Positions 4,628 to 51,661 of a stretch of DNA of 64,000 nucleotides are shown here, piece after piece. The translations under genes and the position numbers were made by a program. The notes beneath the pieces are model-generated. The model did not search any database and was not told the DNA's origin. It saw nothing but the letters and a program-made list of their open reading frames with translations. Source of the stretch: Chitinophagales bacterium (GTDB lineage: Bacteria; Bacteroidota; Bacteroidia; Chitinophagales; Chitinophagaceae); NCBI GenBank assembly GCA_015655125.1, contig JAATFP010000068.1, forward strand, positions 1 to 64,000, read 5' to 3'. Position 1 is the first letter of the stretch. Each line of letters opens with the position of its first letter.

Positions 4628-4739
4628 AGGTGTCAGGTGTCGGGTATCAGACGTTAGCTTTTAGCAGACTCACTAAAAATTTCGTGTTCCGAAAACTACA
4701 ACCTGAAACCTGATACCTCACTCCTCATACCTGCCGCCT
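4628..4739. repeat. Inverted 7-base-period repeat between korA and the arginase-fold gene
   Basis: The right arm (4698-4739) is six consecutive heptamers that all end in CCT, for example GATACCT, CATACCT and GAAACCT. The left arm (4628-4655) is the G-rich complement, with units AGGTGTC, AGGTGTC and GGGTATC. The two arms share the exact 8-mer GGTATCAG in inverted orientation. Together they fill the divergent intergenic region. This is the cleanest example of the heptamer family in the window. Confidence 0.8.
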
Positions 4740-4745
4740 TTCCCT

Positions 4746-4753
4746 TATTTTTG
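4746..4753 (+). promoter_or_regulatory. -7 box TAnnTTTG
   Basis: TATTTTTG matches the consensus exactly and ends 14 bases before the ATG at 4768. This predicts a very short leader. Confidence 0.5.
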
Positions 4754-4767
4754 CCCAAACTTTTTTA

Positions 4768-5895
4768 ATGCAGGATATTACAGATTTTTTAGCGCCCATC
4801 AATGTACACGAACTCAACAATGATGAAGGCTATACAGATGGCCAGTTTGCCAAACACATCAGCATTTATGAAAATGAATTACCCGGACTCGACGGCATCG
4901 ACATCGTGATCGTTGGACTGATCGAAAGCCGGGGAGACAGCTTTTTACGGCAAACAAGTGAGGCCGCCAATATGATCAGGAAGGAGTTGTATCAACTGAA
5001 TTACTGGCACCTCGATACGCGCATTGCAGACATTGGAAACATAAAGACGGGCGCGTCCATCAAAGATAGTTATGCAGCCACAAAAACGGTATTGGATGAA
5101 TTATTAAAACTCAACAAAACCGTCGTACTCATAGGCGGCTCGCACGACAATACGCTGGCGCAATATTATGCGTACCGCGATAACAATCAACAGGTAGAAG
5201 TAACCTGTGTGGATGCGATGATCGACCTTCGCGGCGAAAGTCCGATCCGAAGTGAAAGTTTTCTGATGGAAATGCTTACCGGTGAACCAAATATGGTAAA
5301 GCATTACAACCATATTGCGTTTCAAAGTTATTTTGTTCATCCGCGCATGCTTGAAACGATGGATAAACTGCGTTTTGATTGCTACCGTGTGGGTACCGTT
5401 ACCGAACACATCGAAGAAATGGAACCGATCCTTCGCAACACGAACATGTTGAGTTTTGATATCAGCGCAATCAAATACAGCGACGCACCGGCAAACAAAA
5501 ACTGCCCGAACGGGCTCACAGGCATAGAAGCGTGTATACTTACGCGTTACGCCGGTATGAGTCAGCAATTAAGCAGCATCGGTTTTTACGGGTATGATCC
5601 GAACAAGGATGTGGATGAATTAACCGCGCGGCAGATCAGCCAGATGCTGTGGTACTTCATCGACGGAAAGAGCCGGAGCAAACAGGAAGCTTTGCTGGAA
5701 GAACGCAGCAACTTCAACGAATATCACACTGCTTTTGCGGAAGTAGATACCGTTTTTCTGCAAAGCAAAAAAACGAGCCGTTGGTGGATGCAGATGCCGG
5801 ATAAAAAATTTATCGCATGCAGCTACACAGATTATGTGAAGGCGAGCAATAATGAGATTCCGGAGCGATGGTTGAGAGTTCAGGAAAGGAATTAA
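4768..5895 (+). CDS. Arginase/formimidoylglutamase-fold protein with altered metal ligands
   Basis: The 375-residue protein has the ureohydrolase (arginase/agmatinase/formimidoylglutamase) fold and would be annotated formimidoylglutamase. The signature blocks are recognisable but changed. GGSH (residues 123-126) keeps the His ligand. DAMID (149-153) replaces the usual DAHxD, losing one His ligand. SFDIS (229-233) replaces SxDxD, losing one Asp ligand. The family binds two Mn ions with six ligands, and two of those six differ here. It may be a divergent enzyme or a non-hydrolytic paralogue. It is divergent from korA and ends just before the heptamer repeat at 5896. Confidence 0.7.
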   Translation: MQDITDFLAPINVHELNNDEGYTDGQFAKHISIYENELPGLDGIDIVIVGLIESRGDSFLRQTSEAANMIRKELYQLNYWHLDTRIADIGNIKTGASIKDSYAATKTVLDELLKLNKTVVLIGGSHDNTLAQYYAYRDNNQQVEVTCVDAMIDLRGESPIRSESFLMEMLTGEPNMVKHYNHIAFQSYFVHPRMLETMDKLRFDCYRVGTVTEHIEEMEPILRNTNMLSFDISAIKYSDAPANKNCPNGLTGIEACILTRYAGMSQQLSSIGFYGYDPNKDVDELTARQISQMLWYFIDGKSRSKQEALLEERSNFNEYHTAFAEVDTVFLQSKKTSRWWMQMPDKKFIACSYTDYVKASNNEIPERWLRVQERN

Positions 5896-6054
5896 ATAAG
5901 AAATTTTGAATAAGGAATAAGAAAGTGGAGAACTCAGACAACTCGCGGGTCTTATTCCCTCACTCCTTGTAAAAAGAAAATTTTTATGAAGCATCACGCT
6001 GCCAGACTTTCTTATTCCTTATTGATCATTTCTTGTTCCTTATTCTGTATTTCC
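5896..6054. repeat. Inverted heptamer repeat running into the dacB signal peptide
   Basis: The left arm (5896-5930) is built of units ATAAGAA, ATAAGGA and ATAAGAA. The right arm (6009-6054) is the complement, with phased units TTCTTAT, TCCTTAT, TTCTTGT and TCCTTAT. The right arm lies inside the PBP4-like gene and encodes about residues 8-23 of its lipoprotein signal peptide. A further short piece near 5951-5965 is related. The 7-base phase is kept throughout the right arm. Confidence 0.7.
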
Positions 6055-7311
6055 TGCAGCAGTACAAAATCAATTTCCAGACAAGCCGACAAATTATTGA
6101 TCTCAGATACCGCTATCAGCAAGGGTTTCATCGGTATCAGTGTTTTTGATCCTTCAGGCAATACTTACTTATATAATTATAATGCCGACAAATATTTTGT
6201 GCCGGCGAGCAATACGAAGCTGTTTACGTTGTATGCAGGGATGAAATATTTGGGGGATAGTTTGGTGGGACTGCGGGCATATAATAATGATGGTAATTTA
6301 TATATTTTCTCTACGGGCGATCCGACGTTTCTTCACAAAGATTTTTCTGATCAACCTGCGTTTAATTATTTGCAGAATTGCAATGCTTCCAACATCACTG
6401 TTGTTGATTCGGTGTGGCGGGACGAAGCATGGGGAAATGGCTGGGCGTGGAATGATTACAACGATGATTATATGACGGAACGATCGTCGCTTCCGATCTT
6501 TGGTAACATAATTGAATTGTCCGGCACGCCGGCAAATCTGCATCTCAGTCCGCCATTTCATTTTTCTTACGAGTATGAAGGATGGCGCAAATTATCAAGT
6601 GTTCACAGAAATATTGGCGACAATACTTTCCGTTTCAAATTTAATGCAGACAGTGGAAAAACATTTTACGTTCCCTTTGCTACCTTAAAAGGAGAGACCA
6701 ATAAAAAGATGCTGGGCGATACGCTTCACAAGGTTATTAATCCACAAGATGATTTTGTGCCGGTGATGGCGGGCGATGAAAGGGTAGTGATCATTCATTC
6801 TCAGCCTTCCGATTCTTTATTCAAACCAATGATGCATCGCTCCGACAATTTTTTTGCAGAACAAACTTTACTCATGGCCAGCAATGAATTTCTCGGTTAT
6901 ATGAATGACGAAGCCATCATTGATACGCTTTTAAAAACGTATCTCAAAGACATTCCTCAAAAACCCAAATGGGTTGACGGTTCCGGCCTCAGTCGCTACA
7001 ATCTTTTTACACCACAGGATTTTATTTACATTCTGAACAAGATGAAAAATGAATTCGGTATGGAGCGGATGAAAACAATTCTCGCTACCGGCGGCGAAGG
7101 AACGCTGAAAAATTATTTCCTGACCGACGCGGGATTTATTTATGCCAAAACGGGTACGCTGAGCAACAACTGTGCTTTGAGCGGATATATCATAACAAAG
7201 AAAAATAAATTCCTGCTGTTTTCCATCATTGCAAATAATTACCAAACCGGCGCTACGCCTGTGCGGCGCGCGGTGGAGAAATTTATGAAATACGTGAGGA
7301 TAGCGTATTAA
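5986..7311 (+). CDS. dacB: D-alanyl-D-alanine carboxypeptidase/endopeptidase, PBP4 (S13) family lipoprotein
   Basis: This is a penicillin-binding protein of peptidase family S13 that trims or cleaves peptidoglycan cross-links in the periplasm. All three active-site motifs are present: SxxK as SNTK (Ser75-Lys78), SxN as SDN in MHRSDNFFAEQ, and KTG in YAKTGTLSN near the C-terminus. The gap of about 200 residues between SxxK and SxN is typical of PBP4. The N-terminus is a lipoprotein signal with the modified cysteine probably Cys24, and residues 8-23 are encoded by a 7-base-period repeat. Length is 441 residues. Confidence 0.92.
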   Translation: MKHHAARLSYSLLIISCSLFCISCSSTKSISRQADKLLISDTAISKGFIGISVFDPSGNTYLYNYNADKYFVPASNTKLFTLYAGMKYLGDSLVGLRAYNNDGNLYIFSTGDPTFLHKDFSDQPAFNYLQNCNASNITVVDSVWRDEAWGNGWAWNDYNDDYMTERSSLPIFGNIIELSGTPANLHLSPPFHFSYEYEGWRKLSSVHRNIGDNTFRFKFNADSGKTFYVPFATLKGETNKKMLGDTLHKVINPQDDFVPVMAGDERVVIIHSQPSDSLFKPMMHRSDNFFAEQTLLMASNEFLGYMNDEAIIDTLLKTYLKDIPQKPKWVDGSGLSRYNLFTPQDFIYILNKMKNEFGMERMKTILATGGEGTLKNYFLTDAGFIYAKTGTLSNNCALSGYIITKKNKFLLFSIIANNYQTGATPVRRAVEKFMKYVRIAY

Positions 7312-7416
7312 TCCTTGCATTCATTATCCTCCATATTATCAATGCTTCTGATGAAGTAGAAAAGCTGCGTATTCATTTCTTAAACGCACGCCAGCCACCA
7401 CGGCGGCCTGTTCTTT

Positions 7417-9261
7417 CTACCGCCCGAACATCTTGTCCAACTCTTCCTTCTTAAAGGTCATGTAAGTAGGCTTGCCATTCGGCGTGCTGTTCGGGGTGTT
7501 GCAGGCGAAGAGATCGTTGAGCAAACCGCTCATTTCTTTCTGTGAAAGCGTTGTTCCCGATTTGATAGATTGTTGCAGTGCAAGTGATCGAAATAATTTT
7601 TCACGCTTGCTGAATTTAAGGTCGCTGCTGAAATGCTTGTATTGTTCCAGCATTTTTTCTATGGCATTTTTTTCATTGCCCTGCGAAACGTCGGCGGGCG
7701 TTCCGGAAACAACAAAACTATTGTTGCCAAAAGGTTCCAGTATAAAACCGAGTTGCTGCAGATCGGGGAGAAGTTCGTGTAGTAAAACTGAATCTGTTGC
7801 GGTAAGATCGATCGATACGGGAAACAAACTTTGTTGCGCGGCGATTGCTTTGCCATCCACGGCATGCAAAAATCTTTCGTACAAAATGCGTTCATGGGCA
7901 TTTTGCTGGTTTACTAATAAGTAGCCATTATCATTTTGCACGATAATATAGGCGCTATGTAATTGAAATACATTTTCCGATATGAACTGCGCGTGCAAAA
8001 CAGGCGCATGCAAAGTTGCAGACGAATCATCCGTTTCGAGTCCGGCAGTGAGTGGTTTGAAGTGCGTTTGCGCAGCAGGCTTTTCATAAAAGTCTTTCCA
8101 GTGACCGAGTTCACTTTTATTTTCGATGAAATGCGCCTGGTTGCTTTTGGTAAATGTATTGAACAGGGAAGAGGAGGAAGCGGACGATTTCTTGTCTTCC
8201 GTGAACGGCTTGCTGACCGCGTCCAGATGTTGAATCGATCCGTCAAGGTCAAAATCGAGCGTGGGTGTGATGCTGAACTGCGCCAATGCATGTTTTACCG
8301 CGCTTTCAACAAATGCATATACGATGCGTTCGTCTTCAAATTTTATTTCCTGCTTGGTTGGATGAACATTGATGTCGATCTGCGCAGGATCAAGATTGAT
8401 AAACAATGCATACATCGGGTAACTATCCTTACCGATCATTTCATCGAAGGCCTTCATCACCGCATGATTGAGGTAAGCGCTTTTAATAAAACGATTGTTG
8501 ACAAAAAAGTACTGGTCACCGCGTGTTTTTTTGGAGGTTTCAGGCTTGCCTACAAAACCTGTGATATCAAGATAGTCCGTTTGTTCATGCACACTTACGA
8601 GTTTCGCGTTATAAGTGTTGCCAAGTATCTGAACGATGCGTTGTTTTAGTGATCCGCGTTCGAGATGAAAAACCTGTTGCCCGTTGGACGAAAGTGAAAA
8701 GAATATTTCCGGAAAACTCATTGCTACGCGAATGAACTCATCTACGATATGCCGCAGCTCCGACGGATTACTTTTTAAAAAATTACGGCGCGCCGGCACA
8801 TTGAAGAAAAGATTCTTCATGGCAATGCTGGTACCGGTTTCCATCGCGACGGGCTGCTGATTTTTTACTGTACTGTTTTCGATTTCGATGCAGATGCCTG
8901 CCTCATCTTCGGCACGTTTGGTGCGGAGTTCTACCTGAGCCACAGCTGCGATACTGGCCAAAGCCTCACCGCGGAAGCCCATTGTTTTAATGCTGAAGAG
9001 GTCGTCGATGTTCCGGATCTTGCTGGTTGCATGCCGCTCAAAGGCCATACGGGCATCGGTTTCACTCATCCCTTTGCCGTTGTCTATCACCTGTATAAGT
9101 TGTTTGCCGGCATCGTTTATCAGCAATTTAATTTCTGTCGCGCCGGCATCCACTGCATTTTCCAGTAGCTCCTTTACGGCGCTGGCCGGTCGCTGGATCA
9201 CTTCTCCGGCGGCAATCTGGTTGGCAATGTTATCAGGTAATAATTGAATGATATCAGGCAA
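7417..9261 (-). CDS. mutL: DNA mismatch repair protein MutL
   Basis: This is the mismatch-repair coordinator of the GHKL ATPase family. N-terminal ATP-binding motifs are intact: ELLENAVDAGA, DNGKGM and TMGFRGEALASI. The reading frame is open to 9390, but the extra 43 residues do not resemble MutL. The family start (PDIIQLLPDNIANQIAAGEV) follows a TTG at 9261 with GGAG five bases upstream, so TTG is taken as the start, giving 614 residues. In the C-terminal domain the nuclease motif DQHA-x2-E reads NQQNAHE and the CPHGRP motif reads TPNGKP, so latent endonuclease activity is doubtful. Confidence 0.93.
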   Translation of the reverse strand: MPDIIQLLPDNIANQIAAGEVIQRPASAVKELLENAVDAGATEIKLLINDAGKQLIQVIDNGKGMSETDARMAFERHATSKIRNIDDLFSIKTMGFRGEALASIAAVAQVELRTKRAEDEAGICIEIENSTVKNQQPVAMETGTSIAMKNLFFNVPARRNFLKSNPSELRHIVDEFIRVAMSFPEIFFSLSSNGQQVFHLERGSLKQRIVQILGNTYNAKLVSVHEQTDYLDITGFVGKPETSKKTRGDQYFFVNNRFIKSAYLNHAVMKAFDEMIGKDSYPMYALFINLDPAQIDINVHPTKQEIKFEDERIVYAFVESAVKHALAQFSITPTLDFDLDGSIQHLDAVSKPFTEDKKSSASSSSLFNTFTKSNQAHFIENKSELGHWKDFYEKPAAQTHFKPLTAGLETDDSSATLHAPVLHAQFISENVFQLHSAYIIVQNDNGYLLVNQQNAHERILYERFLHAVDGKAIAAQQSLFPVSIDLTATDSVLLHELLPDLQQLGFILEPFGNNSFVVSGTPADVSQGNEKNAIEKMLEQYKHFSSDLKFSKREKLFRSLALQQSIKSGTTLSQKEMSGLLNDLFACNTPNSTPNGKPTYMTFKKEELDKMFGR

Positions 9262-12771: not shown

Positions 12772-14052
12772 TCATCCCATCAAAATTACTGATTTGTTGC
12801 TAATAATGTGATACAACTTAATGGTAAGTGCGTGAAAGAGCATTTTGGGGTTAGCGTTGCGCTCTATGTAGTAAGTGGCCTGATCGAGTTCTTCGATGAT
12901 GGCTTCCTGCTGTTCGATACTGCATAATTTATTGAAACGCAATGCAAAATCGATGTCGCTGCGGGCCTGTTCATTGCTCTGCGTTTCTTTCTGATGCGGC
13001 AGATTTTCCAGTCCGATAGCGCGGATGCGCACGGCCTGTTCCAATATATGAGTAAAATATTTAAGGAATTGCTTCTGTTTTTCCCGGCCGGTTTTGGCCA
13101 TTTCCTCTATCCATTTCACCTGGGCAACCGGCCCTGTCTTTACAATACTGTTGAGCCAGTCTCGAAGCAAAGTTTCCCAATCATCTTCTGCATGCTGTAG
13201 CTGCTGAAGTGCCTCGTGGTAATTTCCTTCTGAAATGGCTGCGATCTGTGCCGCCTTTTGTGCAGAAATACCTTCTTGCTCTTCCAGCGCCTGTTCAATC
13301 TCCGCATACTGAAGTTGCGGCACTTTCACCAGCTGCGTCCGTGAAAGGATCGTTGGCAATACGAGTGCGTCGTTTTCTGCTACCAATATAAATAAGGTAT
13401 TGGCGGGCGGCTCCTCAATGAGCTTGAGCAATTTATTGCCTTCTTTGCCCAACGCCTCCGGCATCCACATGATGAGGATCTTGTATTCAGATTCAAAACT
13501 TTTAAGGCTTAGTTTGCGGATGATGTCGTTGCATTCATGCACATTAATGTTTCCCTGCTTGTTTTCCGCCCCGGCAGATTGCAGCCAGTCATAACTATTT
13601 CCATAAGGATGTGCTGTAATAAATTCGCGCCATTCTACTATAAAATCAGTACATACCGATTTTTCGCCGGGCTTTTTTGGAAATATCGGGAAAGAAAAGT
13701 GAATATCAGGATGAACCAATTGCGTAGCTTTTTTGCAGGCAGCGCATTCTCCGCAGGAATCCGTGGGAGTTCCGAGTGGCGGATTAAGAGTTTCGGGTTG
13801 TGCTGCCGGTTCGGGGTCTCCAAATAGTGAAGGTTCTGCGGTTGTCGGTTGTCTATGGTCGGTCGTCGCCTTCGGCTTCTTCCCGCCGGTTTTTTCACAA
13901 ACAATGTATTGCGCAAATGCCTGCGCAAGCGACAAAGCGCCGCTGCCTTCTTTTCCCAAAAACAACAGGGCGTGACTAAGCCTGTTGTGAGAGATCATGT
14001 GAACGAGTTGTTCTTTTAGTTCGGACTGGCCGATGACGTTGGAGAAGCGCAT
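12772..14052 (-). CDS. holB: DNA polymerase III subunit delta' with linker insertion
   Basis: This is the clamp-loader delta' subunit. The AAA+ region begins with FSNVIGQSELKEQL, and the degenerate P-loop GKEGSGALS is expected for delta'. The zinc module uses Cys52, Cys100, Cys103 and Cys106, the sensor region contains LKLIEEPPANTLFIL, and the arginine-finger region reads LSRTQ. Residues about 60-97, between the first and second zinc cysteines, are a Pro/Thr/Glu-rich insertion encoded by 7-base-period repeats (13764-13870). The 426-residue length is larger than usual. A heptamer array also ends just before its ATG. Confidence 0.88.
   Translation of the reverse strand: MRFSNVIGQSELKEQLVHMISHNRLSHALLFLGKEGSGALSLAQAFAQYIVCEKTGGKKPKATTDHRQPTTAEPSLFGDPEPAAQPETLNPPLGTPTDSCGECAACKKATQLVHPDIHFSFPIFPKKPGEKSVCTDFIVEWREFITAHPYGNSYDWLQSAGAENKQGNINVHECNDIIRKLSLKSFESEYKILIMWMPEALGKEGNKLLKLIEEPPANTLFILVAENDALVLPTILSRTQLVKVPQLQYAEIEQALEEQEGISAQKAAQIAAISEGNYHEALQQLQHAEDDWETLLRDWLNSIVKTGPVAQVKWIEEMAKTGREKQKQFLKYFTHILEQAVRIRAIGLENLPHQKETQSNEQARSDIDFALRFNKLCSIEQQEAIIEELDQATYYIERNANPKMLFHALTIKLYHIISNKSVILMG
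13764..13870. repeat. Heptamer arrays inside holB
   Basis: Two adjoining stretches keep a 7-base phase on the plus strand. 13764-13805 has units TGGGAGT, TCCGAGT and TTCGGGT. 13834-13870 has CGGTTGT, CGGTTGT and CGGTCGT. They encode the non-conserved insertion between zinc-ligand cysteines of delta'. The phase can be followed across the gap between them. Confidence 0.6.
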
Positions 14053-14057
14053 TTTTT

Positions 14058-14208
14058 AGTGAATAGTGAATGGTCAATAGTGAAACCTTCAAAGAGCCTG
14101 CAAGATAGTCAATAGTGAAACCTTCATAGAATAAAAAAAATGGCAGGGATTAAAAATATTTTTAATCCCTGCCATAAAGAAAAATTTACGAAGATTTCAC
14201 TATTGACC
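14058..14208. repeat. Inverted heptamer repeat around the gpx terminator
   Basis: The left copies at 14058-14085 (AGTGAAT, AGTGAAT, GGTCAAT, AGTGAAA) and 14107-14120 (AGTCAAT, AGTGAAA) face an inverted copy at 14195-14208. A perfect palindromic terminator lies between them. On the minus strand the array runs to within about five bases of the holB start codon. Confidence 0.75.
14133..14175 (-). terminator. Terminator of gpx
   Basis: Positions 14140-14175 form a perfect 36-bp palindrome (half-site ATGGCAGGGATTAAAAAT). On the minus strand it is followed by a run of T. It lies behind the glutathione peroxidase gene. Confidence 0.85.
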
Positions 14209-17205: not shown

Positions 17206-17242
17206 CCCTATCCTAAACACCTAAACCTCCAAACACCTAAAC
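17206..17242. repeat. C-rich near-heptamer repeat after radA
   Basis: Repeated CCTAAAC and CCAAAC units, spaced 7-8 bases apart, sit right at the radA stop. A T/A-rich complement-like stretch (TTTAGAG, AGTTTAG) lies about 70 bases away at 17141-17165. Confidence 0.55.
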
Positions 17243-19165: not shown

Positions 19166-21427
19166 ATGAAACTGTTGTGTTTTTTCTTACTGCTTTTGAT
19201 TTCCGGGAGTGTATCGGCGCAGGTAAAAGTGTATGGCCGATTGACGGACAATAAGAACAGACCGCTGGCCGGTGCCAGCATTTCTATCGTAAATTCATAC
19301 GATGGCGCTACCACGGATTCTCTCGGGTACTATTCCTTTATAACAACAGAAAAAGGAGAGCAAACACTGGAAGCCAGCCTGTCCGGCTACGGGACATATA
19401 TAAAAAAAATAAGAATTGGTGACAATAATATTGATCAGAACATATCAGTAAAAGAGTTAATAACTGAGCTGAACGCTGTAGTAATCAGTGCCGGATCTTT
19501 TGAGGCCAGCGACAAAAAGAAAGGTACCGTGCTTAGCTCACTTGACATTGTAACAACTGCCAGTGCAAACGGTGATATTACCGGCGCACTTAAAACATTG
19601 CCGGGTACGCAGCAGGTGGGCGAATCTGAAGGTTTGTTCGTCCGCGGCGGTACTGCCACCGAAAGTAAGATCTTCATGGATGGCAACCTGGTGAATAACT
19701 TCTTTTACAGCAGTCTGCCCGGAATTGCAACACGCGGCAGGTTCAATCCTTTTTTATTCAAAGGAACGGTATTCAGCGCGGGCGGATATTCGGCTTTGTA
19801 TGGCCAGGCGCTTTCTTCGGCGCTGATCCTGGAAAGCAATGATTTGCCGGAACGGACGGAAGCCAGTCTGTCTTTATCTGTGATCGGCGCCGGTGGCGGA
19901 ATTCAAAAGCTGGCTAAAAACAAGAAGGCAAGTTGGGGAATTACCTACAGTTACGCAAATCTTGCCCTGGCTTTTGGCGTATTGAAACAAAAGCAGGATT
20001 TTTTTAAGATACCCGAATATCATGAGCTGGATGCCAATTTCCGTATTAAAACAAAAAATGGTGGGTTTATAAAATATTACGGGTATGCCAGCTGGAACAA
20101 AACCGGTTTTCGTGCGGCGGATATAGACTCTTCGTCTTTGCAAAATGCATTTGATCTTGAAAATCTGAATACTTATCAGAATCTTAACTGGAAAGAAAAT
20201 CTTGGTCGTGGCTGGAAAGCAACTTCCGGGATAAGTTTCAGTACCAATAAAGATGACATCGAAAACGAGTTGCAGGATGCAAACGATAACAAGGTTCCGG
20301 TTGTTGTTGTAAATGATTATACCTATAAAAATTTCAAGCTGAAGAACCGTTCCGTGTATGCACAGGCGCGGGTGGTACTCGAGAAAAAACTGGGCGGATT
20401 GAATACGGTCCGGTTTGGCGCAGAACATTTTTACAGCAATGAAAAAGCGATCTATACATTATATAACAATGATTCGTATTCGAGTACGGTAAAAGACAAC
20501 CTCACCGCAGGCTTTGCCGAATCTGATTTCTACATCACCAAAGACATTGCGGCAAAGGTTGGGACGCGGCTGGAACATTCGGAACTGATGCAAAAATGGA
20601 ACATCGTGCCACGCGCATCGCTGGCATATAAATTCAGCAATACGAGCCAGGCATCCTTTGCCTACGGCATTTTTTATCAGAACCCGGAAAGGAAATATCT
20701 GCCGACGATCAATGACGACCTTGGTTTTGCGAAAGCAACACATTACATTTTGCAATTTGAAAAAGCAAAGGATCAGCGCCGGTTCCGCACAGAATTGTTT
20801 TACAAGAAATACGACGCCTTATATAAAACGGCGCAAAATAATAATGGCGTGGATGTAGCTGCCACAAACGATGGAACCGGTTATGCGCGGGGCGTGGAAA
20901 TGTTCTGGCGCGATAAGAAGACGATCAAATTCATGGATTACTGGGTATCTTATTCTTACCTTGATACGAAACGCGACTACCTGAATTTTCCGGGAAAGAT
21001 GCGCCCGGATTTTGCCGCTAAACACACGGCATCATTGGTGGTGAAAACTTTTCTGCTGCCTCTCAAAACCGGCTTCAATGCAAGTTATACGTTCGCCAGC
21101 GGCCGGCCCTATTACCAATTGAAATATGATGCAACGACTCAACAATATTTTGTAGGTGACAAAGGGAGGACCATCAATTACAATAACGTAGGGTTCAGCA
21201 TCAATTATCTGCCGAACCTTGGAAAAACAAATCCTAAATCATTTGTGGTATGGGTGCTTTCGGTGACGAACGTACTGGGGCAAAAGCAGGTCTATGGATA
21301 TAATTATGGCAATATCAGCGGCCGCAGAGACGCCATTACGCCGCCGGCACCAAGATTCGTATATATAGGCTGCTTCCTGAGTTTTGGGGTAGACAGGACA
21401 CAGGATGCGATTAATAACAACCTGTAA
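19166..21427 (+). CDS. TonB-dependent receptor with carboxypeptidase-like N-terminal domain
   Basis: The 753-residue outer-membrane receptor has a signal peptide (cleavage about residue 18). A CarboxypepD_reg-like domain (about 21-95) contains VYGRLTDNKNRPLAGASISI. A plug domain (about 105-225) contains GLFVRGGTATESKIFMDG. A 22-strand barrel follows. It imports an unknown substrate using TonB energy. No SusD partner follows, which argues against a glycan system. The next four genes on the strand are close and may be co-transcribed. It has its own good promoter. Confidence 0.88.
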   Translation: MKLLCFFLLLLISGSVSAQVKVYGRLTDNKNRPLAGASISIVNSYDGATTDSLGYYSFITTEKGEQTLEASLSGYGTYIKKIRIGDNNIDQNISVKELITELNAVVISAGSFEASDKKKGTVLSSLDIVTTASANGDITGALKTLPGTQQVGESEGLFVRGGTATESKIFMDGNLVNNFFYSSLPGIATRGRFNPFLFKGTVFSAGGYSALYGQALSSALILESNDLPERTEASLSLSVIGAGGGIQKLAKNKKASWGITYSYANLALAFGVLKQKQDFFKIPEYHELDANFRIKTKNGGFIKYYGYASWNKTGFRAADIDSSSLQNAFDLENLNTYQNLNWKENLGRGWKATSGISFSTNKDDIENELQDANDNKVPVVVVNDYTYKNFKLKNRSVYAQARVVLEKKLGGLNTVRFGAEHFYSNEKAIYTLYNNDSYSSTVKDNLTAGFAESDFYITKDIAAKVGTRLEHSELMQKWNIVPRASLAYKFSNTSQASFAYGIFYQNPERKYLPTINDDLGFAKATHYILQFEKAKDQRRFRTELFYKKYDALYKTAQNNNGVDVAATNDGTGYARGVEMFWRDKKTIKFMDYWVSYSYLDTKRDYLNFPGKMRPDFAAKHTASLVVKTFLLPLKTGFNASYTFASGRPYYQLKYDATTQQYFVGDKGRTINYNNVGFSINYLPNLGKTNPKSFVVWVLSVTNVLGQKQVYGYNYGNISGRRDAITPPAPRFVYIGCFLSFGVDRTQDAINNNL

Positions 21428-21475
21428 TCAATCATCAATCATTACTCAACGATTTCACCATTGACCATTCACTCT
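21427..21475. repeat. Heptamer array between TonB receptor and next gene
   Basis: Seven phased units run from the receptor stop codon, including ATCAATC, ATCAATC, ATTACTC, TCACCAT and TGACCAT. The array ends 13 bases before the next ATG. The TTCACY and TTGACC words are shared with the arrays near 14.1, 33.5 and 47.75 kb. Confidence 0.75.
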
Positions 21476-34423: not shown

Positions 34424-34460
34424 CGGCATTCGATTGTCTTCATATGAAGTTGTTGGCATG

Positions 34461-34498
34461 TATACCAATAACTGTCATCTAACAACTAACAACTATAC
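34461..34498. repeat. Heptamer array ending at the icmF start codon
   Basis: Phased units TATACCA, ATAACTG, TCATCTA, ACAACTA and ACAACTA lead straight into TACC and the ATG at 34500. They lie downstream of the -7 box, so the array forms the 5' untranslated leader. Confidence 0.7.
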
Positions 34499-34499
34499 C

Positions 34500-37400
34500 A
34501 TGAGTTTTTCTATTCAGAACAAAATCCGACTTGTAACTGCCGCTGCATTATTTGATGGACACGATGCTGCTATCAATATCATGCGGCGTATCCTGCAGAG
34601 CAAAGGTGCGGAGATCATACATCTTGGTCACAACAGGAGCGTGGCCGAAATTGTGGAATGTGCCATCGAGGAAGATGTACAGGGCATTGCCATCACAAGC
34701 TACCAGGGCGGTCACGTGGAATTTTTTAAATACATGAAAGATCTGCTGGAAGAAAACGGTTGTGGCCACATTAAGATATTCGGCGGCGGCGGCGGTACCA
34801 TTCTGCCTTCCGAAATCGAAGAGTTGCATAATTATGGCATTACAAGAATTTATAGTCCGGATGACGGTCGCAAAATGGGCCTGGAAGGAATGATTGAAGA
34901 CGTAGTAAAAAATTGCGATTTTTTATTGAACGGATCAGGGGAGTATAAAAATCCGATGACGCTTGGAGAAGTGATTGATGTAAGAAAGGTTGCCCGCAAG
35001 ATCACGAACGCGGAGAATGGCGTGACAACATACGACCGACGACCGACGACCGAAGAACCGGCAACCGGAAAGGTCGTTCCTGTTTTAGGAATTACGGGAA
35101 CGGGCGGAGCCGGAAAATCTTCTGTGACGGATGAAATTGTTCGTCGTTTTTTAAATACTTACGAAGACAAAACGATTGCCGTTATTTCCGTTGATCCAAG
35201 CAAGAAAAAAACCGGTGGAGCATTGCTCGGCGATCGCATCCGCATGAATTCCATTTCAAACAACCGCGCGTATATGCGCAGTCTTGCTACGCGTGAAAGT
35301 GATAAGGCGCTGAGTCAATACGTAAAAGAAGCCACGGGCATTTGCCGCGAAGCAGGCTACGATTGTATCATTCTGGAAAGCGCGGGCGTGGGCCAGAGTG
35401 ACGCTTCGATCCTTGATTATTGCGACATCAGCATGTACGTGATGACGCCGGAATATGGCGCGCCGTCGCAACTGGAAAAAATAAACATGCTGGATTATGC
35501 TGATGTGATCTGCTTAAATAAATTTGACAAAGCCGGCGCATTGGACGCCTTGCACGATGTGCGCAAGCAATACAAACGCAATCATAATTTGTGGGACGCA
35601 AAAGACGGCGATCTGCCGGTAGTGGGAACCATCGCTGCGCAGTTTAATGATGCGGGCGTGAATGAATTGTTTGAAAGGCTGATGGAAAAAGTGGCCGAAA
35701 AAACCGGCGTGAAATTTCATGGTGATATCGAACATCATATTCATGTGGCTGATACGGCGAGCCAGTCGACGATCATTCCGGCGAAGCGCATTCGTTATTT
35801 GGCAGAGATCGCTGAAACCATTGCTGAGTATGATCTGTGGGTAAATGAACAAAGTAAGGTCGCTACGCAATTGTATCAATTAAAAGGCGCCATCGAAATT
35901 GTGAAGAATGAAGCATTGCAAAAGGCGATCACAGAATTGGAAGAAAAATTAGACGTTACCAACAAAAAATTAATGGAAGGCTGGCCGGCTGTAAAAGATC
36001 GTTACAGCAAAGAATTTTATGAATTTACGGTACGTGATAAGGTCATCAAACAACCACTCACTTATAAAAGTTTATCTGGCAGCATTATTTCAAAAGTATA
36101 TCTGCCAAAATTCAGCGATTGGGGCGATATTTTAAAATGGCAATTGCAGGAAAACCTTCCCGGCGAATATCCTTACACGGCAGGTGTGTTTCCATTAAAG
36201 CGTGAAGGTGAAGATCCGACAAGAATGTTTGCCGGCGAAGGCGGACCGGAAAGGACGAACCGCCGTTTTCATTACGTGAGTGTTGGTCAGCCTGCAAAGC
36301 GCCTCAGTACTGCGTTTGATAGCGTTACGTTATATGGCGAAGATCCCGCTTATCGCCCGGATATTTACGGAAAAGTGGGGAACAGCGGGGTGAGCATCGC
36401 CACTGTCGATGATGCAAAAAAACTGTACAGTGGTTTTGATTTGTGTGATCCCAAAACATCTGTAAGCATGACCATTAATGGCCCCGCGCCGATGTTGCTC
36501 GCATTTTTTATGAATGCAGCCATCGATCAGCAATGTGAAAAATATATTATTGAAAATGATCTTCGTGAAAGTGTTAACAAAGCCATCGAAGCGAAATACA
36601 ATATTGAAGACCTTCCGAAGTACATTGGCACAGACGGTAAACTAATTGCGCCGCAACATGGAAGTTTCGAAGGTGCATTGCCGGAAGGTAATGATGGCCT
36701 GGGTTTGCGGCTGCTTGGGCTGAGTGGAAAAGATGTGTTGCCCGCAGATGTGTATGAAAAAATAAAAGCGAAAGCGCTGTCTACTGTCAGAGGAACGGTA
36801 CAGGCGGATATATTGAAAGAAGACCAGGCACAGAATACCTGCATTTTTTCTACGGAGTTTGCCTTGAAGTTAATGGGAGATGTGCAGGAGTATTTTATCA
36901 GTCAGAAAGTGCAGAATTTTTACAGCGTAAGTATCAGCGGTTATCATATCGCTGAAGCCGGCGCCAATCCTATCACACAGCTGGCATTCACGTTGGCGAA
37001 CGGGTTCACGTACGTGGAATATTATTTGAGTCGCGGCATGAAGATCGACGATTTTGCGCCCAACCTTTCTTTCTTTTTCAGCAACGGCATGGATCCTGAA
37101 TATAGCGTGATCGGCCGCGTGGCCCGCCGCATCTGGGCCAAAGCGATGAAGCATAAATATAAAGGAAACGACCGCAGTCAGAAATTGAAATATCATATTC
37201 AAACAAGCGGCCGTTCGCTGCATGCGCAGGAAATCGATTTCAATGATATCCGCACTACTTTGCAGGCTTTGTACGCGATCTACGACAACTGCAATTCACT
37301 TCACACCAATGCCTATGATGAAGCGATTACTACCCCAACGGAAGAAAGTGTTCGCCGTGCAATGGCCATTCAACTGATCATCAACAGGGAACTGGGTACG

Positions 37401-37889
37401 GCCAAAAATGAAAATCCCAACCAGGGATCTTTCCTCATTGAAGAAATGACGGATCTCGTGGAACAGGCCGTGATGGCCGAATTCAACCGGCTTACGGAAA
37501 GGGGAGGCGTGCTGGGCGCGATGGAAAGAATGTACCAACGCAATAAGATCCAGGAAGAAAGCCTATATTACGAAACACTGAAGCATACCGGCGAATACCC
37601 GATAGTGGGAGTAAATACTTTTTTGAGTAAAAACGGCTCGCCAACGATCTTGCCTACAGAAGTGATCCGAAGCACAACAGCTGAAAAAGAATCCCAGATC
37701 AAAACACTGGAAGCATTTCATCAAAGGCACAAAGACAAGTCTGCCGAAATGCTCAAACGATTACAGGCCGTAGCCGTAAGCAATGGTAATTTATTTGAAG
37801 AGCTGATGGAAACCGTTCGTTTCTGTTCGCTCGGCCAGATCACGAACGCGTTGTACAGCGTGGGTGGGCAATACCGACGCAGCATGTAA
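34500..37889 (+). CDS. icmF: Fused isobutyryl-CoA mutase / methylmalonyl-CoA mutase family protein (IcmF)
   Basis: IcmF fuses a B12-binding domain, a MeaB-type G-protein chaperone and an acyl-CoA mutase, and interconverts isobutyryl-CoA and n-butyryl-CoA. The order here is as expected. The B12 domain is about residues 8-140 with [12 protein letters not shown]. The GTPase P-loop GTGGAGKSS is near residue 200, and the (beta/alpha)8 mutase lies from about 560 to the end. The ATG at 34500 gives 1129 residues and starts the family block. The linker at residues about 176-190 ([15 protein letters not shown]) is encoded by heptamer repeats and resembles the holB insert. Confidence 0.93.
35024..35067. 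repeat. Heptamer array inside icmF
   Basis: Five exactly phased units occupy 35033-35067: CGACCGA three times, then AGAACCG and GCAACCG. They encode the linker between the B12 and GTPase domains. The encoded peptide is similar to that of the holB array and is read in the same frame. Confidence 0.75.
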
Positions 37890-45173: not shown

Positions 45174-45246
45174 AAATTTTTTTATTTTTTCAAAATGAAT
45201 GTTGAAACGATGATTTTTTATAGAGGTTTAAATTTAGGCAAATTAG

Positions 45247-45451
45247 TTTAGAGATCAGGGATGAGCGGTTAGGAGGAGCGTGCCTGTAGGAGTAAATTTT
45301 AAAATACCGTCAGCCTGAGCTTGTCGAAGGCGTCTTCGACAAGCTCAGGCTGACGGTATTGCTATTTCAAAACTCTTTTAATTATCTTAGTGTTGAAGCC
45401 TAAACGGCTAAACTTTCTAAACAATCTAACCACTCATCCCTGATCTCTAAA
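45247..45451. repeat. Nested inverted repeat upstream of M16 peptidase and hydrolase
   Basis: Outer arms 45247-45272 and 45426-45451 are 26-base inverted repeats with one mismatch (GCGG versus GTGG context). They enclose a long perfect palindrome (45303-45360). Between the palindrome and the right arm, CTAAAC words recur every 8-9 bases. Confidence 0.85.
45303..45360. repeat. REP-like palindrome
   Basis: Perfect 27-bp arms are separated by a 4-base loop. The core word CAGCCTGAGCTTGTCGAAG is a known, widely dispersed repetitive palindrome in many bacterial genomes (from memory of the motif, not a search). No second copy is in this window. Confidence 0.8.
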
Positions 45452-47658: not shown

Positions 47659-47693
47659 AGGTAAGAACGCGCCACAGGTACGTTCTTACAGGC

Positions 47694-47722
47694 ACAAAAA
47701 ACGCGCATCCGGTAGAATGCGC
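47694..47722 (-). terminator. Terminator of the L,D-transpeptidase gene
   Basis: On the minus strand GCGCAT and ATGCGC form a hairpin followed by a T run. A separate 9-bp hairpin (GTAAGAACG and its complement, 47661-47689) lies just after queA. Confidence 0.6.
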
Positions 47723-47750
47723 ATTGCTATTTATAAAACTCTTGCAAAGA

Positions 47751-47771
47751 TTTCACTATTGACCACTTGAA
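47751..47771. repeat. Short heptamer array
   Basis: Three phased units, TTTCACT, ATTGACC and ACTTGAA, match the array words at 14.1 and 21.4 kb. They sit in the convergent gap after queA. Confidence 0.55.
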
Positions 47772-47790
47772 GCCGGAGCTCCAGGATAAA

Positions 47791-48339
47791 TTATGGTTGG
47801 ATGGTCACTTTCGTTCCGACAGGAATATAACTAAACAGATCCTTCATCTCCGTATATTTCACCGACACACATCCGTCCGTCCAGTTGTAAAAATTATCCA
47901 CGGTCCATTCTTCTTCCGGGCGCGTTGCATGAATGGCTATTCCGTCGCCGATTTTTGCATTTTTTGGGATGAGGCCCTGTGCCTTGCGTTCATTAAAACG
48001 ACGATAACTTTCATCATTCGGATAGTCGAGCAACAGTTCCGGGCCCCATTTTGGATGAATCTTTTTTAAGATAATCTTAAAACTTCCGGTAGGGGTTTTT
48101 TTATCACCTTCGCGCATTTTATCACCGAGGTCCTTGCTGCAGAAAACGATCGGGTAAGTGGCGTACCAACCTTCATCGTCGAATACTTTGAGTTCGTAAT
48201 CGCTTTTGTCTACGATAATGTAATAAGGATTTTCTTCTGCGGAGGCTTTTTTCAACCTGTTGGTTCTTGCCGGCATGTAAGCCATTAAACAACTGAGCGG
48301 TAAAAGCGCAAAAAAAGAGACATAACGGCGGTGTTTCAT
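47791..48339 (-). CDS. L,D-transpeptidase (YkuD) family protein
   Basis: This is an exported L,D-transpeptidase that would cross-link or modify peptidoglycan through a cysteine thioester. The N-terminal hydrophobic segment is a signal or anchor. The catalytic block is IAIHATRPEE...WTDGCVSV, with the nucleophile Cys in TDGC. The usual SHGC is changed to TDGC, as in some YafK-type members. It is 182 residues. Confidence 0.85.
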   Translation of the reverse strand: MKHRRYVSFFALLPLSCLMAYMPARTNRLKKASAEENPYYIIVDKSDYELKVFDDEGWYATYPIVFCSKDLGDKMREGDKKTPTGSFKIILKKIHPKWGPELLLDYPNDESYRRFNERKAQGLIPKNAKIGDGIAIHATRPEEEWTVDNFYNWTDGCVSVKYTEMKDLFSYIPVGTKVTIQP

Positions 48340-48485
48340 TTTCTATAGAATTTTGCTTTGATAATTCAATGATCAGCTACAGCCTGATAATGGAAACTGC
48401 GGATAACCTTAACAAACAAAGTAGCGTGAAAATACATATTTTTTAAATCCGGGCTCGCTAATAAAAGGTGAAAATTTTTCCCAAA

Positions 48486-48576
48486 GGTAGACGACCCTTT
48501 CACAGACCAAAAATTCTCCAAAAGGTTAAATAACAAAAAATCTTAATTTTTTGCATATTCCGAAAGGCCGTCTACC
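48486..48576. other. Imperfect inverted repeat with GGTAGACG arms
   Basis: The arm at 48486-48501 (GGTAGACGACCCTTTC) and the arm at 48562-48576 (GAAAGGCCGTCTACC) are near-complements 60 bases apart, in an otherwise featureless gap. Confidence 0.5.
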
Positions 48577-48583
48577 CTAAAAC

Positions 48584-48611
48584 AAAACCTTCGCCTGCAA
48601 GCGAAGGTTTT
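48584..48611. terminator. Terminator of the sigma-operon
   Basis: AAAACCTTCGC and its complement form an 11-bp stem with a 6-base loop and T-rich tail on the minus strand, behind the frameshifted barrel gene. Confidence 0.85.
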
Positions 48612-48634
48612 AACCCTGAAAGTAAAAATGAATA

Positions 48635-49518
48635 TTACCAGTTGCTAAATCTGAAACCAATTGTGAACGGACGGATATCCAAATCGTTTTCATACATCGA
48701 TTTGGGGCTGTAGGAACCGTATAATCTTACCGGGCCGAGGCCAAGTTCGCCCACGTAACTTAACTTGAATCTTTCCATATCATATTCACCCTTGTTTTTT
48801 TGCTTGCCGCGTTCATCACTTTTTTGTTTGTTGCGCTGACTGTATAAATATCCTGCGCTCACGCCGATACTTGCGCTGATGCCTTTTTTAGAGCTCGCCC
48901 GGTTGGAAGCGAAGTTGAGCATTAAAGGAACTGTCAGATAATCTGCTGCCAGTTTGTTTTTGCTGAAAGAAATCGAATCTCTGAAAATGAAGGGCGCATT
49001 CGTCTGTAACCCGCCACTGTAAGGGATCACGCCGCCTTCGCTGTAGCTGATAGAAGGCAGTGATTTATAGCGATAGTTGTTCAGTTCCAGTCCAAGTCCA
49101 TATTTAAGATTGATATTCTTTTTGTACAAACTCAATCTTTGCATAAAGAACCAGATATTTACATTGATGCTTTACCTGTCTGCAATTTGAAGTCGCTTTT
49201 GCCAAAAGCCGGACTGCCCGGGCGATTTACAAGATAGCTTCCTGTATTTCCGTAATCCGTCTGATCGCTATAGTTGGAGAAGCCAAGGTCCAGGACAAAA
49301 TAGTTGGTGGTAATTTTGGAATTGGTTTTCTTCGGAACCCTCCTCATTACAAGTGTACTATCTTTACCATTGGAACGCTTTCCTTTTTTTATGATAAGAA
49401 TATTTCCGATCCGCATGGTGTCGTTCTTTTCAACCTGAACTTTAACGGCCAGTGTGTCTTGTGCTTTTACGCCTGTGCAAAGCGCTGCCAATGCTAATAG
49501 TAGAGTTAGCCTTTTCAT
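48635..49518 (-). pseudogene. Outer-membrane beta-barrel protein, frameshifted
   Basis: Two open frames on the minus strand (49518-49159 and 49144-48635) are halves of one gene. The first encodes a signal peptide and N-terminal beta strands and stops soon after KLQTGKASM. In the other frame the sequence reads on as INVNIWFFMQRLS and so on to a C-terminal barrel strand ending GFRFSNW. Adding one A to the AAA run at 49171-49173 gives a continuous protein (GKSINVNIWFFMQRL). It is the last gene of the sigma/anti-sigma operon and may be its target. A homopolymer error is possible. Confidence 0.8.
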
Positions 49519-49541
49519 CTTCTTAGTTTTAATGTGTGTGA

Positions 49542-50648
49542 TTATTTTAATGCAATTTCAAACCCGGCGATCTTCAATCCGTTTCCGCCTTTGATCTTTG
49601 TTTTTCGTTCAACGGTTCTTTTTAATTTTCTGAAAAATCCGGCAGCTTTGGAGCGGTTTACGTCGTCTTCATTCAAATATAAAATCCGGTTATCATTTGT
49701 TTCTTCTGAAACGCTCGCATTAGATGCAAGGCTGTTCGTCGGAATGTCCATGATGTTCTGATCAATGATCACGTTCTGTGGTACGTTGATCACCATCTGA
49801 TTGTTACTTTTTTCCGGATTTATTTTTTCTATTTTTTGATTGCTTGCCAGCAACACCATGTCATCATTGGGTTGTATAGGATTTGTTGCAGGCAAAACTT
49901 CCTGGTCTTTATTGGATTGATCATTGTTTTTTACCAGTTCGTCTTTCTTCGGATGATCAGCAGTAATTGTTTGCTGCGCTGATCTTTTCTTCATGTCATC
50001 AGTTGCAGTTTGCGCCATCACAGGGTCGGTATCCGGAAGTACAATTGTGCTGTTATTGATATTATTACCAGGAGCAACGGATTGGTTTTTTATGACAGGT
50101 GTTCCTGATTCTTTCCGGCCGCTACTCTTTTTTCCCGATGCCAGTTCCGTATCAGGACCGGCCTTTTTATTGCTGAGATTGATCACTGTAAAAGTTCCTG
50201 CACCGATCAATACCGCGGCTGCGGCCCATCTGATAAATCTTCCGGCGATCACATTGTCTTTTTCTTTGCGATATAAAGATTGCTTGTCTTCAAATACGAT
50301 CGTATCGGCCGCGTCCAGTTTTGTTTGCTGAAGGATTGCCAGTTCGGTTCTCAGCATTTCGCTGGCAGACAACGTTTGTTTGAATGCTTCTGTTTCGGAC
50401 TTATCCAGTTCATTATCGAGAAAAAGCAACAATTTTTCTTCCATATTTTCCGGGCGCAACAGGCTGATCTTATCGTCGAACAGGATAGTTTCATCCATCA
50501 TCACCACATCCTGCAGCTGCGCCAGTTCTTCCTGCAGATCCGGATTTGCGGCAGCAAAATCTTCCACGGTCTTCCTGTCGGCTGCACACAACTCATTGTC
50601 TACATACAGCAAGAAAAAATTTTCGTAATTATCGCGGTTGATGTTCAT
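49542..50648 (-). CDS. Putative anti-sigma factor, transmembrane
   Basis: The 368-residue protein follows the ECF sigma gene with a 23-base gap. The cytoplasmic N-terminus has two internal repeats (LLYVDNELCAADRKTVEDF near residue 14 and LLFLDNELDKSETEAFKQT near 75) that look like anti-sigma modules without the zinc His/Cys. A single membrane helix follows at about residues 140-158. The rest is a low-complexity Asn/Gln/Asp/Pro-rich periplasmic part with a basic end. The repeat and position support an anti-sigma role, but no family domain is clear. Confidence 0.7.
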   Translation of the reverse strand: MNINRDNYENFFLLYVDNELCAADRKTVEDFAAANPDLQEELAQLQDVVMMDETILFDDKISLLRPENMEEKLLLFLDNELDKSETEAFKQTLSASEMLRTELAILQQTKLDAADTIVFEDKQSLYRKEKDNVIAGRFIRWAAAAVLIGAGTFTVINLSNKKAGPDTELASGKKSSGRKESGTPVIKNQSVAPGNNINNSTIVLPDTDPVMAQTATDDMKKRSAQQTITADHPKKDELVKNNDQSNKDQEVLPATNPIQPNDDMVLLASNQKIEKINPEKSNNQMVINVPQNVIIDQNIMDIPTNSLASNASVSEETNDNRILYLNEDDVNRSKAAGFFRKLKRTVERKTKIKGGNGLKIAGFEIALK

Positions 50649-50671
50649 TTTAAATAATTGGTTGGGTATTG

Positions 50672-51157
50672 TCAGATCACATTTTCGGGCTTTATGATAT
50701 ATGCCTTCAATTGCAATCTTGCGCGGTGAAGATAAACTTTCACCTGGCTCTCATTGAGCCCGGTGATCTCGCCTATTTCAGCGTAATTATAACCTTCATA
50801 ATCTTTCAGCATAACAAGGCTTCTTTGTGTTTCGCTGAGCTGGCTCAATGCTTCCTGCAAGATTCTTTTCCGGTTTTGCTGTTGTTCATTTGCGCCAAGG
50901 GCCGTTTCCGTAAATTCTTCTTTATAGGTGATCCGTTTGTTCTTCCTGATATGGTCGATCATCTGGTTGTAGGCGATCGTAAACAGGAAACTCTTGCTTT
51001 TTTCGTTGATTACCTGCTCCCGGTTGACCCACAACTTTTCAAATGCTCCCTGCACCACATCCTTTGCGTCATCTTCATGGCGAAGATTTTTCAGGATGAA
51101 CCGATACACGTTATCCGAGTAAAGGGTTACACATTCGTTATATTCTCTTTCGGTCAT
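50672..51157 (-). CDS. ECF RNA polymerase sigma factor
   Basis: The 161-residue sigma-70 family factor has region 2 (YRFILKNLRHEDDAKDVVQGAFEKLW) and region 4 (LSETQRSLVMLKDYEGYNYAEIGEITGLNESQVKVYLHRAR). It lacks extra domains. It is the first gene of an operon with the transmembrane anti-sigma candidate and a barrel protein, the usual cell-envelope layout in Bacteroidota. Confidence 0.93.
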   Translation of the reverse strand: MTEREYNECVTLYSDNVYRFILKNLRHEDDAKDVVQGAFEKLWVNREQVINEKSKSFLFTIAYNQMIDHIRKNKRITYKEEFTETALGANEQQQNRKRILQEALSQLSETQRSLVMLKDYEGYNYAEIGEITGLNESQVKVYLHRARLQLKAYIIKPENVI

Positions 51158-51251
51158 ACAGTCTGTTGGAGCGGTAAAATTAGTTCTATCCGGCCGTTTT
51201 TTAAGCTATACGGGCCAATATGTTTAAAAGTTACACCCGCTTTAAAAAAAA

Positions 51252-51455
51252 TCAGGAAAAATGAAAGATGCCTTTGGTAATAAAGTTCAGGGGTGAAATG
51301 CTGCGGTTGGTCTCGCTCGCACTGCATTCCGGCACCCCTTTACAGGGCGATGTTTGCAGGGTTCCATTTTTGTGAGCATCCCGCGCATTGATCAATAAAG
51401 CGGCAAAAAGCAATGCTAAAAGCATCAAAAGGGGAAGGTCTTTTTTGATCTGCAT
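51252..51455 (-). CDS. Small exported hypothetical protein
   Basis: The 67-residue protein has a signal or anchor helix (residues 6-24), then a Cys-containing segment (SPCKGVPECSAS) and a hydrophobic end (LNFITKGIFHFS). It resembles small periplasmic proteins seen in Chitinophagaceae, but I cannot name it. No close promoter was found, so the call rests on the coding character. Confidence 0.45.
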   Translation of the reverse strand: MQIKKDLPLLMLLALLFAALLINARDAHKNGTLQTSPCKGVPECSASETNRSISPLNFITKGIFHFS

Positions 51456-51538
51456 AACGGTTATTTATTGGTATTACGGAATTGCGGGTTAAATGTTACA
51501 GATAAAGGCGTGTTTGTTAAAAAAGGTATAAGTGATCA

Positions 51539-51661
51539 GTTATGGGTTGCGGATGGGCCGATTACGGATTGCGGAGTCGGGTTGTTTTAGTCAGCGCACC
51601 TAAATTAAGGGTCAGGCTGACTGCAACGTCGAAAACCCGCCAACCCAACCGCCCAAATCTC
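51539..51661. repeat. Inverted heptamer arrays upstream of kbl
   Basis: The left array (51539-51587) has G-rich phased units GTTATGG, GTTGCGG, GATTACG, GATTGCG and GAGTCGG. The right array (51634-51661) has the C-rich counterpart AACCCGC, CAACCCA and ACCGCCC. The right array ends about 30 bases before the kbl -7 box. Confidence 0.75.

Follow-up and report, generated by a model that had tools for sequence, protein, structure and literature searches.

We analysed a stretch of 64,000 bases (bases 1-64000 of contig 22; hereafter the window) from a Ferruginibacter-like genome, G000, which is 3.75 Mb long and 99.8% complete and whose intergenic DNA carries dispersed arrays of 7-base units. With a probability that we put at roughly 0.8, these arrays form the ends of S23 elements: one-gene mobile elements accompanied by many gene-less copies. 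A full element would measure about 0.53 kb, with inverted arms around a single open reading frame (ORF) that encodes a four-helix-bundle protein of the S23/23S_rRNA_IVP family. Each arm would consist of about four to five tandem units of 7 (sometimes 8) nt, and each S23 lineage would have its own word. The gene-less units would be relatives resembling miniature inverted-repeat transposable elements (MITEs), bearing the same words and probably moved in trans by an S23 protein of the genome. Insertion would favour stop codons, usually leaving the neighbouring genes intact, with 5 bp duplicated at one clean site.

The original prediction, made from the window alone, described dispersed, degenerate arrays with a strict 7-base period and suggested testing their autocorrelation at lag 7 against shuffled controls. 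We scored each match +1 and each mismatch -1 at a given lag and used dinucleotide shuffles as controls. In the window (38 intergenic regions, 5823 bases, 200 shuffles), 4 segments score at least 9, against a shuffle mean of 0.42 (highest 3), and 2 score at least 13, against none in the 200 shuffles. The window and 39 further stretches of the same genome (767,313 bases, 483 intergenic regions) together hold 126 intergenic segments scoring at least 9 at lag 7, versus 7.6 in the mean of five shuffles; the corresponding numbers are 94 versus 8.0 at lag 14 and 42 versus 4.2 at lag 21. Coding DNA of this genome has no lag-7 excess. Arrays lie within 10 bp of a region edge in 66 of 126 cases, compared with 28.8 ± 3.8 under random placement.

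The presence of dispersed arrays is thus confirmed, and lag 7 is dominant. The period is not strict: lags 8 and 9 are both mildly raised (19 segments versus 5.8 and 19 versus 7.2), and two Pinibacter-group samples contain 67 and 61 arrays at lag 8. Such 8-nt arrays are almost all free of overlap with 7-nt arrays in three array-rich genomes (66/67, 58/61 and 21/22). All four arrays originally quoted as examples are found in place. Three of them score at lag 7 (4693-4732, 21427-21448 and 34476-34495; Table 1), but 51546-51573 spans two stretches scoring only 7, indistinguishable from chance.

The same period dominates in relatives. Across 80 RadA loci (1.39 Mb, mostly Chitinophagaceae by record title), 106 segments score at least 11 at lag 7, 33 at lag 8 and 15 at lag 9, with 5-9 segments at each of lags 5, 6, 10, 11 and 13; at least one lag-7 array is present at 31 of these loci. 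By RadA, Ferruginibacter sp. HRS2-29 is the closest named relative among the matches listed (94% protein identity), and its RadA locus is 100% identical to that of the sister genome G080 over 3963 aligned bases.

S23 genes between inverted arms

Searching for inverted arms separated by 220-3000 bp leads to the same places as searching for the PF05635 family, namely S23 genes. By one rule (pair score of at least 13), an inverted pair of 7- or 8-nt arrays surrounds the gene at 72 of 103 S23 loci, namely 53 of 73 in a first set and 19 of 30 in a phylum-wide set drawn by PF05635 score. Other lags (4-6 and 9-12) yield 6 locus-lag hits over the 73 loci and none over the 30, and among non-S23 genes of 80-200 amino acids only 4 of 374 have an inverted pair. 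Some of these loci nearly duplicate one another; thinning to less than 80% protein identity reduces the 73 loci to 64, 45 of them paired. At a score of 16, 20 of 1425 genes are flanked, and 4 of those 20 are S23 genes. Of 30 S23 loci in five genomes, 24 have a pair score of at least 16, one scores 10 and five have a one-sided array; 16 of 26 further loci have a pair scoring at least 12 (14 at lag 7, one at lag 8, one at lag 10), and the remaining 10 all have at least one adjacent array scoring at least 8.

S23 genes are widespread. PF05635 genes occur in 157 of 198 sampled Bacteroidota genomes, with matches over the cut-off in G000, G080, G116, G117 and G118. We found 28 plasmid records with S23, 22 of them cyanobacterial; 13 of 18 sampled plasmid loci (Cyanobacteria, Gemmatirosa, Azospirillum) score at least 13. 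The plasmid hosts of armed S23 genes are Cyanobacteria, one Gemmatimonadota and one Alphaproteobacterium, and armed S23 genes also occur in Bacteroidota. A single query of a phage collection gave no S23 match. One weak match to the S23 model (PA 272170-272577, 24 bits) proved to be an L-PSP endoribonuclease domain and was discarded.

The elements have a median length of 527 bp (10-90%: 444-618), mostly S23 ORF, which leaves little space for a transposase. All five S23 proteins scanned score above the PF05635 cut-off and show no other domain. A solved relative is PDB 2RLD (E 1.7e-14), with five chains in the entry. No known-transposase domain was detected in the five scanned proteins. The S23 family presumably forms homopentamers; an S23 oligomer could bind an arm with about one subunit per unit and join the two ends.

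Paired arrays are inverted copies of one word set, and the core between them has a median length of about 50 nt. In 29 arm pairs of G000 the mean inverted match is 17.2; it drops to 9.5 when arms are exchanged among elements and to 7.3 when they are compared in direct orientation, and both Pinibacter-group samples give the same picture. The strand skew of the inverted arms, already noted in the original prediction, is borne out in regions of at least 80 nt: left arms have G>C in 43 cases versus 9, and right arms C>G in 35 versus 9. The 80 RadA loci show the same sense (40 versus 6 and 36 versus 3). Polarity tracks the region and not gene direction, on which ground we reject a gene-orientation-linked regulator in the 5' untranslated region. 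A gene-centred model, in which both flanks of one gene are complementary, was set aside because the arms within one region share words.

Unit words vary by locus, with a common G-strand skeleton A-W-R-D-T-K-A over 160 arrays (fit 2.58, versus 2.02 ± 0.03 with columns permuted). The median number of units per arm is 4.4 for S23 arms and 4.6 for the 70 stronger arrays of G000. Gene-less arm-core-arm units in intergenic DNA span about 70-200 bp. Two very long, near-perfect heptad arrays lie near contig ends, one of TAATTCG (L067:141-305, about 23 units) and one of TTGAACC type (L012:47-214, about 20 units); arms can thus expand strongly. Palindromes of longer repeats, of CACAGAG, ACGCAGAT..GTCATGAT and CTTAGTG types, occupy similar sites (L335 after position 2877; intergenic regions of PA, L177-L191, and PB, L192-L206) and are possibly further S23-type or sister families.

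Words and proteins are inherited together. Between genomes, S23 pairs of 50-80% protein identity (n=43) have a mean unit similarity of 0.639 versus 0.483 when permuted, and none of 5000 permutations is as high; little word signal, if any, is left below about 50% identity. Since the relatedness of the pairs was not removed, this link reads as co-inheritance and not as recognition. The S23 proteins of a Lacibacter (L255; Bacteroidota, the genome of locus L115) and of a Nostoc plasmid (L286) are 68% identical and have related words, perhaps through transfer between phyla.

Away from S23 genes, too, arrays resemble the words of the S23 genes in their genome. The fraction at least 0.75 similar is 0.79 in G116, 0.51 in G000, 0.50 in G117 and 0.48 in G118, compared with 0.10-0.36 for words of distant genomes and 0.53-0.71 for those of sister genomes, the word sets differing in size (10-18 profiles). 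The gene-less units may descend from full S23 elements and be mobilised in trans. At the RadA locus, 3 arrays fall in the 25.1 kb of intergenic DNA from nine S23-free genomes and 118 in the 102.0 kb from 41 S23-bearing ones, 63 of these 118 coming from three loci. Over intergenic DNA, S23-free genomes have 0, 1.7, 8.0 (weak scores) and 6.2 (clear heptads) arrays per 10 kb, and four S23-bearing genomes, picked partly for richness, have 10.0-47.2.

Insertion sites, turnover and rival explanations

Filled and empty sites are found in relatives. On Nostocales plasmids that are 97-98% identical at the site, the S23 unit is absent in three records (three of six such records were sampled) and present in two. 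The filled site reads GTAAT-element-GTAAT, a 5-bp duplication that contains the stop codon of the upstream gene. Two other sites, which lie where a gene stops or where a stop meets a start, have a strict 3-bp overlap (CTA and ATG). Neither the traM nor the cmr site is clean; cas10 has an altered end at the latter. Strain 26-R-25 has only about two units, either seed or scar, where one Pinibacter S23 element sits, and a different palindrome at a second site.

On cyanobacterial plasmids, S23 genes also lie within CRISPR operons, in the cas6/cas4 gap (L274, L288) and between cas10/cmr2 and cmr3 (L287). A CRISPR survey has 23S rRNA IVP among its domains (PMC10910872).

Stop codons are preferred. 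Of 328 stop-codon edges, 166 have their nearest array no more than 5 nt away, versus 52 of 315 start edges; with starts trimmed to the first ATG the counts are 167 of 333 versus 36 of 328. These distances are approximate because genes were called by a simple longest-ORF method. The arrays had been thought often to end at a start codon; some do, but stops are the favoured edge.

Turnover was followed between Pinibacter aurantiacus and strain 26-R-25 (288 and 292 kb), as an alignment of orthologous intergenic regions had been proposed at the outset. Of 167 orthologous regions of at least 30 nt, 60 have arrays in both species, 88 in neither, and 6 and 13 in one species only. Some orthologous arrays keep their word and differ by whole units. 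In others, among the regions listed, both arms and the core are replaced between conserved flanks, even 7-nt units for 8-nt ones; words swap at about 91% flank identity. The presence-absence pairs are unusable for target duplications because the two genomes are too diverged.

Several results weigh against S23 elements as the source of the arrays. A scored pair is missing from 31 of 103 S23 loci, and no array reaches the threshold at 6 of the 30 phylum-wide ones. Among neighbouring arrays of the DXS sample the direct orientation is commoner, the inverted one being better in 20 of 60, and the mirroring of unit order between arms is only weakly above that of unit-permuted arms. Taken over all S23 pairs, protein and word correlate weakly (0.083, a value equalled or exceeded in 95 of 2000 permutations). 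Words of a sister genome beat own words in G000 (0.60) and G117 (0.71), and 37 of 88 G000 arrays match none of its own S23 words at 0.7. Gene-less cores have a common length within a dialect and mostly unshared sequence, and hmmsearch detects no S23 relic in them, leaving descent by internal deletion conjectural. At the RadA locus, S23 copy number is no predictor of array density across 50 genomes (Spearman 0.18, p 0.20), and genome G157 has clear heptad arrays and no S23 match. Finally, of seven filled/empty comparisons only one has a clean 5-bp duplication; the CTA and ATG overlaps may partly be arm sequence, and the other four sites have no readable duplication or another element in place.

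One rival reading is reverse transcription, with an Avd-like S23 protein recruiting a reverse transcriptase and the arms forming an RNA stem. PF05635 is said to resemble Avd of diversity-generating retroelements (DGRs; PMC10053308), and rRNA intervening sequences with S23 ORFs are described as forming stems cut by RNase III (PMC4990558). Against this, 11 of 20 chosen S23-bearing genomes, among them G000 and the 100% complete G080, lack any PF00078 match. A PF00078 reverse transcriptase is therefore not required for S23 elements, and we reject this route as very improbable.

The whole-unit length changes recall polymerase slippage: a preference for 7-nt steps would create simple repeats, later decayed by point mutation, and S23 would be incidental. 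Unit-step differences between orthologous arrays (clearest at L088 4840-4993, 14 bp) and the long arrays of L067 and L012 favour it, as does the 7-nt dominance among long prokaryotic simple repeats (Mrazek 2007, as cited in PMC4679880). Slippage leaves unexplained the fixed polarity of inverted arms, the joint swaps of both arms, the enclosure of S23 almost solely at 7/8 nt and the genome-specific match to S23 words. On these grounds we reject it as the sole cause and regard it as about as improbable as reverse transcription; it may still lengthen arms.

In a further rival of similarly low probability, the arrays would be bound by a global regulator (IHF/HU, S1, Csp or Csr) that controls the adjacent genes, as earlier proposed for Geobacter metallireducens (PMC2700814) and Beggiatoaceae (PMC4679880); the arrays do adjoin genes and the sites are paired, but words swap at orthologous sites with conserved flanks, just one of the two species has an array at 19 of 167 orthologous regions, polarity ignores gene direction and the arms enclose an S23 gene. 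Later regulatory co-option at single sites is possible.

We thus favour S23 elements as the origin of the arrays. The original prediction had named as possible causes a mobile element that copies 7-base units or a dedicated replication or repair process. Its interpretation is partly supported: the S23 elements, gene-less units and filled and empty sites in relatives argue for a mobile element, but a process dedicated to copying 7-base units is unnecessary, and the period can be 8.

Features of the window

The arrays and arms of the window are collected in Table 1. Several features resemble the arms of L231, an S23 element of the same genome in which TAAAGAT adjoins the right arm; L234 is an S23 element of the sister genome G080.

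Table 1. Arrays and arms in the window, with their highest similarity to S23 arms.
Position	Strand	Feature	Score	Similarity to S23 arms
2711..2729	+	Array TAATTTTTAATTCGTAATT, weak	8 (lag 7)	0.80 (L234)
4628..4648	-	Left arm, AGGTGTC units; element between divergent genes	10 (lag 7)	0.56 (top for any G000 or G080 S23 arm)
4693..4732	+	Right arm, ACCTGAA / ACCTCAC units; inverted to 4628-4648	15 (lag 7)	0.60 (top)
14057..14084	-	Left arm, word TAGTGAA; gene-less element	13 (lag 7)	0.93 (L231)
14196..14208	+	Short right arm TTCACTATTGACC, pairs with 14057..14084; GAAGAT before it		
17212..17241	+	Right arm, CCTAAAC-type units with frame slip	10 (lag 8)	0.52 (no S23 match by score)
21427..21448	+	Array ATCAATC, begins at stop codon of ORF 19166-21427	11 (lag 7)	
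21454..21472	+	Array TTCACCATTGACC, L231 dialect	8 (lag 7)	0.81 (L231)
34476..34495	+	Array CTAACAACTAACAACTA, just upstream of an ATG	11 (lag 7)	
45245..45272	-	Left arm TTTAGAGATCAGGGATGAGCGGTTAG, weak	7 (lag 7)	
45408..45448	+	Right arm CTAAACTTTCTAAACAATCTAACCACTCATCCCTGATCTCT, complementary to 45245-45272	lag 9 over 45408-45435	
47746..47764	+	Right arm TTCACTATTGACC, AAAGAT before it; L231 dialect and subterminal motif		

By eye, the word of the array at 17212..17241 is related to GTTTAGAGATTAG beside a broken S23 gene, L246 (G000 contig 95, 112377-112692). That gene is interrupted, with one arm left, and its word by eye resembles CTAAACC/CTAATCT arrays.

The arrays had been called mostly intergenic; two lie within called ORFs. 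CGGTTGT-type heptads occupy 13839-13868, within a DNA polymerase III subunit-like ORF (12772-14052). At 35025-35056, within ORF 34434-37889, ACGACCG is repeated three times (lag-7 score 17); the word resembles that of an array next to S23 gene L219 in G000, and this is perhaps an arm inserted in coding DNA. No Rfam family matches the window at its gathering score.

Comparison with known systems

PF05635 is known from rRNA intervening sequences, from its likeness to Avd and from a listing of CRISPR-adjacent domains, as far as the available parts of three papers go (PMC4990558, PMC10053308, PMC10910872). In open-licence PubMed Central literature, represented largely by titles and abstracts, we found no account that ties S23 to tandem-unit arms.

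The 23S rRNA intervening sequences have an S23 ORF and a length of about 0.43-0.44 kb, and their mobility was proposed earlier (cited in PMC4990558). The elements here are like them in their single S23 ORF and complementary ends, at 0.53 kb. Intervening sequences sit inside 23S rRNA genes, whereas none of 40 S23 loci searched here has an Rfam match, so that these are not rRNA insertions; no rRNA is annotated at 16 annotated plasmid S23 loci, though the annotation table omits RNA genes. By description (PMC4990558), the elements here also differ in their arms of tandem 7/8-nt units, their many words and their abundant gene-less units.

The inverted-arm form had been thought undescribed, which does not hold: inverted pairs of tandem repeats of 8, 8/9 and 7 nt (classes 1-3) are already published for Geobacter metallireducens as putative IHF/HU sites, with several word families per genome and, for classes 1 and 2, a variable distance (PMC2700814). 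Compared by description only, they share the inverted tandem pairs with our arrays and differ in being read as IHF/HU sites. The main text of that paper contains no 'S23', 'four helix' or 'IVP'.

TAACTGA heptamers are intergenic, tandem and strain-specific in Cyanobacteria, Beggiatoaceae and some Bacteroidetes; they are portrayed mainly as direct repeats of one word and taken for possible translational sites (PMC4679880). The terms S23, four helix and intervening are absent from the main text of that paper. Our arrays have mixed words and also 8-nt units. The short tandemly repeated repetitive (STRR) sequences of cyanobacteria are intergenic tandem heptamers. Uniform direct 7-nt repeats of one word, as in STRR and TAACTGA, are not what is seen here.

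MITEs and insertion sequences, as generally known, share terminal inverted repeats, gene-bearing and gene-less copies and empty sites with S23 elements, whose non-autonomous copies have the arm words of their own S23. The differences are that S23 elements have no recognised transposase, that their ends are tandem unit arrays and that target duplication is clean at one site only. From DGRs, with their Avd, S23 elements differ in needing no reverse transcriptase. Repetitive extragenic palindromes (REP) and their associated tyrosine transposases (RAYT) have another architecture by description (20-40 bp palindromes, a GTAG-type tag and a Y1 transposase).

The elements described here would vary on a known kind, the S23 intervening element, and may be a new class of mobile element if end-recognition holds. 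That S23 is the end-recognising protein of such a class, an arm-reading oligomer that brings the ends into synapsis and targets stop codons, is a proposal we hold tentatively, at somewhat under even odds. The oligomer would read about five 7- or 8-nt units per arm, with stop codons targeted via a host enzyme or an unrecognised S23 activity. "Why seven?" then becomes testable: unit length should match the footprint that a single S23 subunit leaves, and a different contact between subunit and unit is expected in S23 lineages whose units have 8 nt. The link between S23 and the arrays gives the orphan PF05635 family a job and explains fast-changing intergenic DNA in these bacteria. It may also join repeat types reported apart; were end-recognition true, one mechanism would account for cyanobacterial STRR, TAACTGA heptamers, the paired repeats of Geobacter and rRNA intervening sequences.

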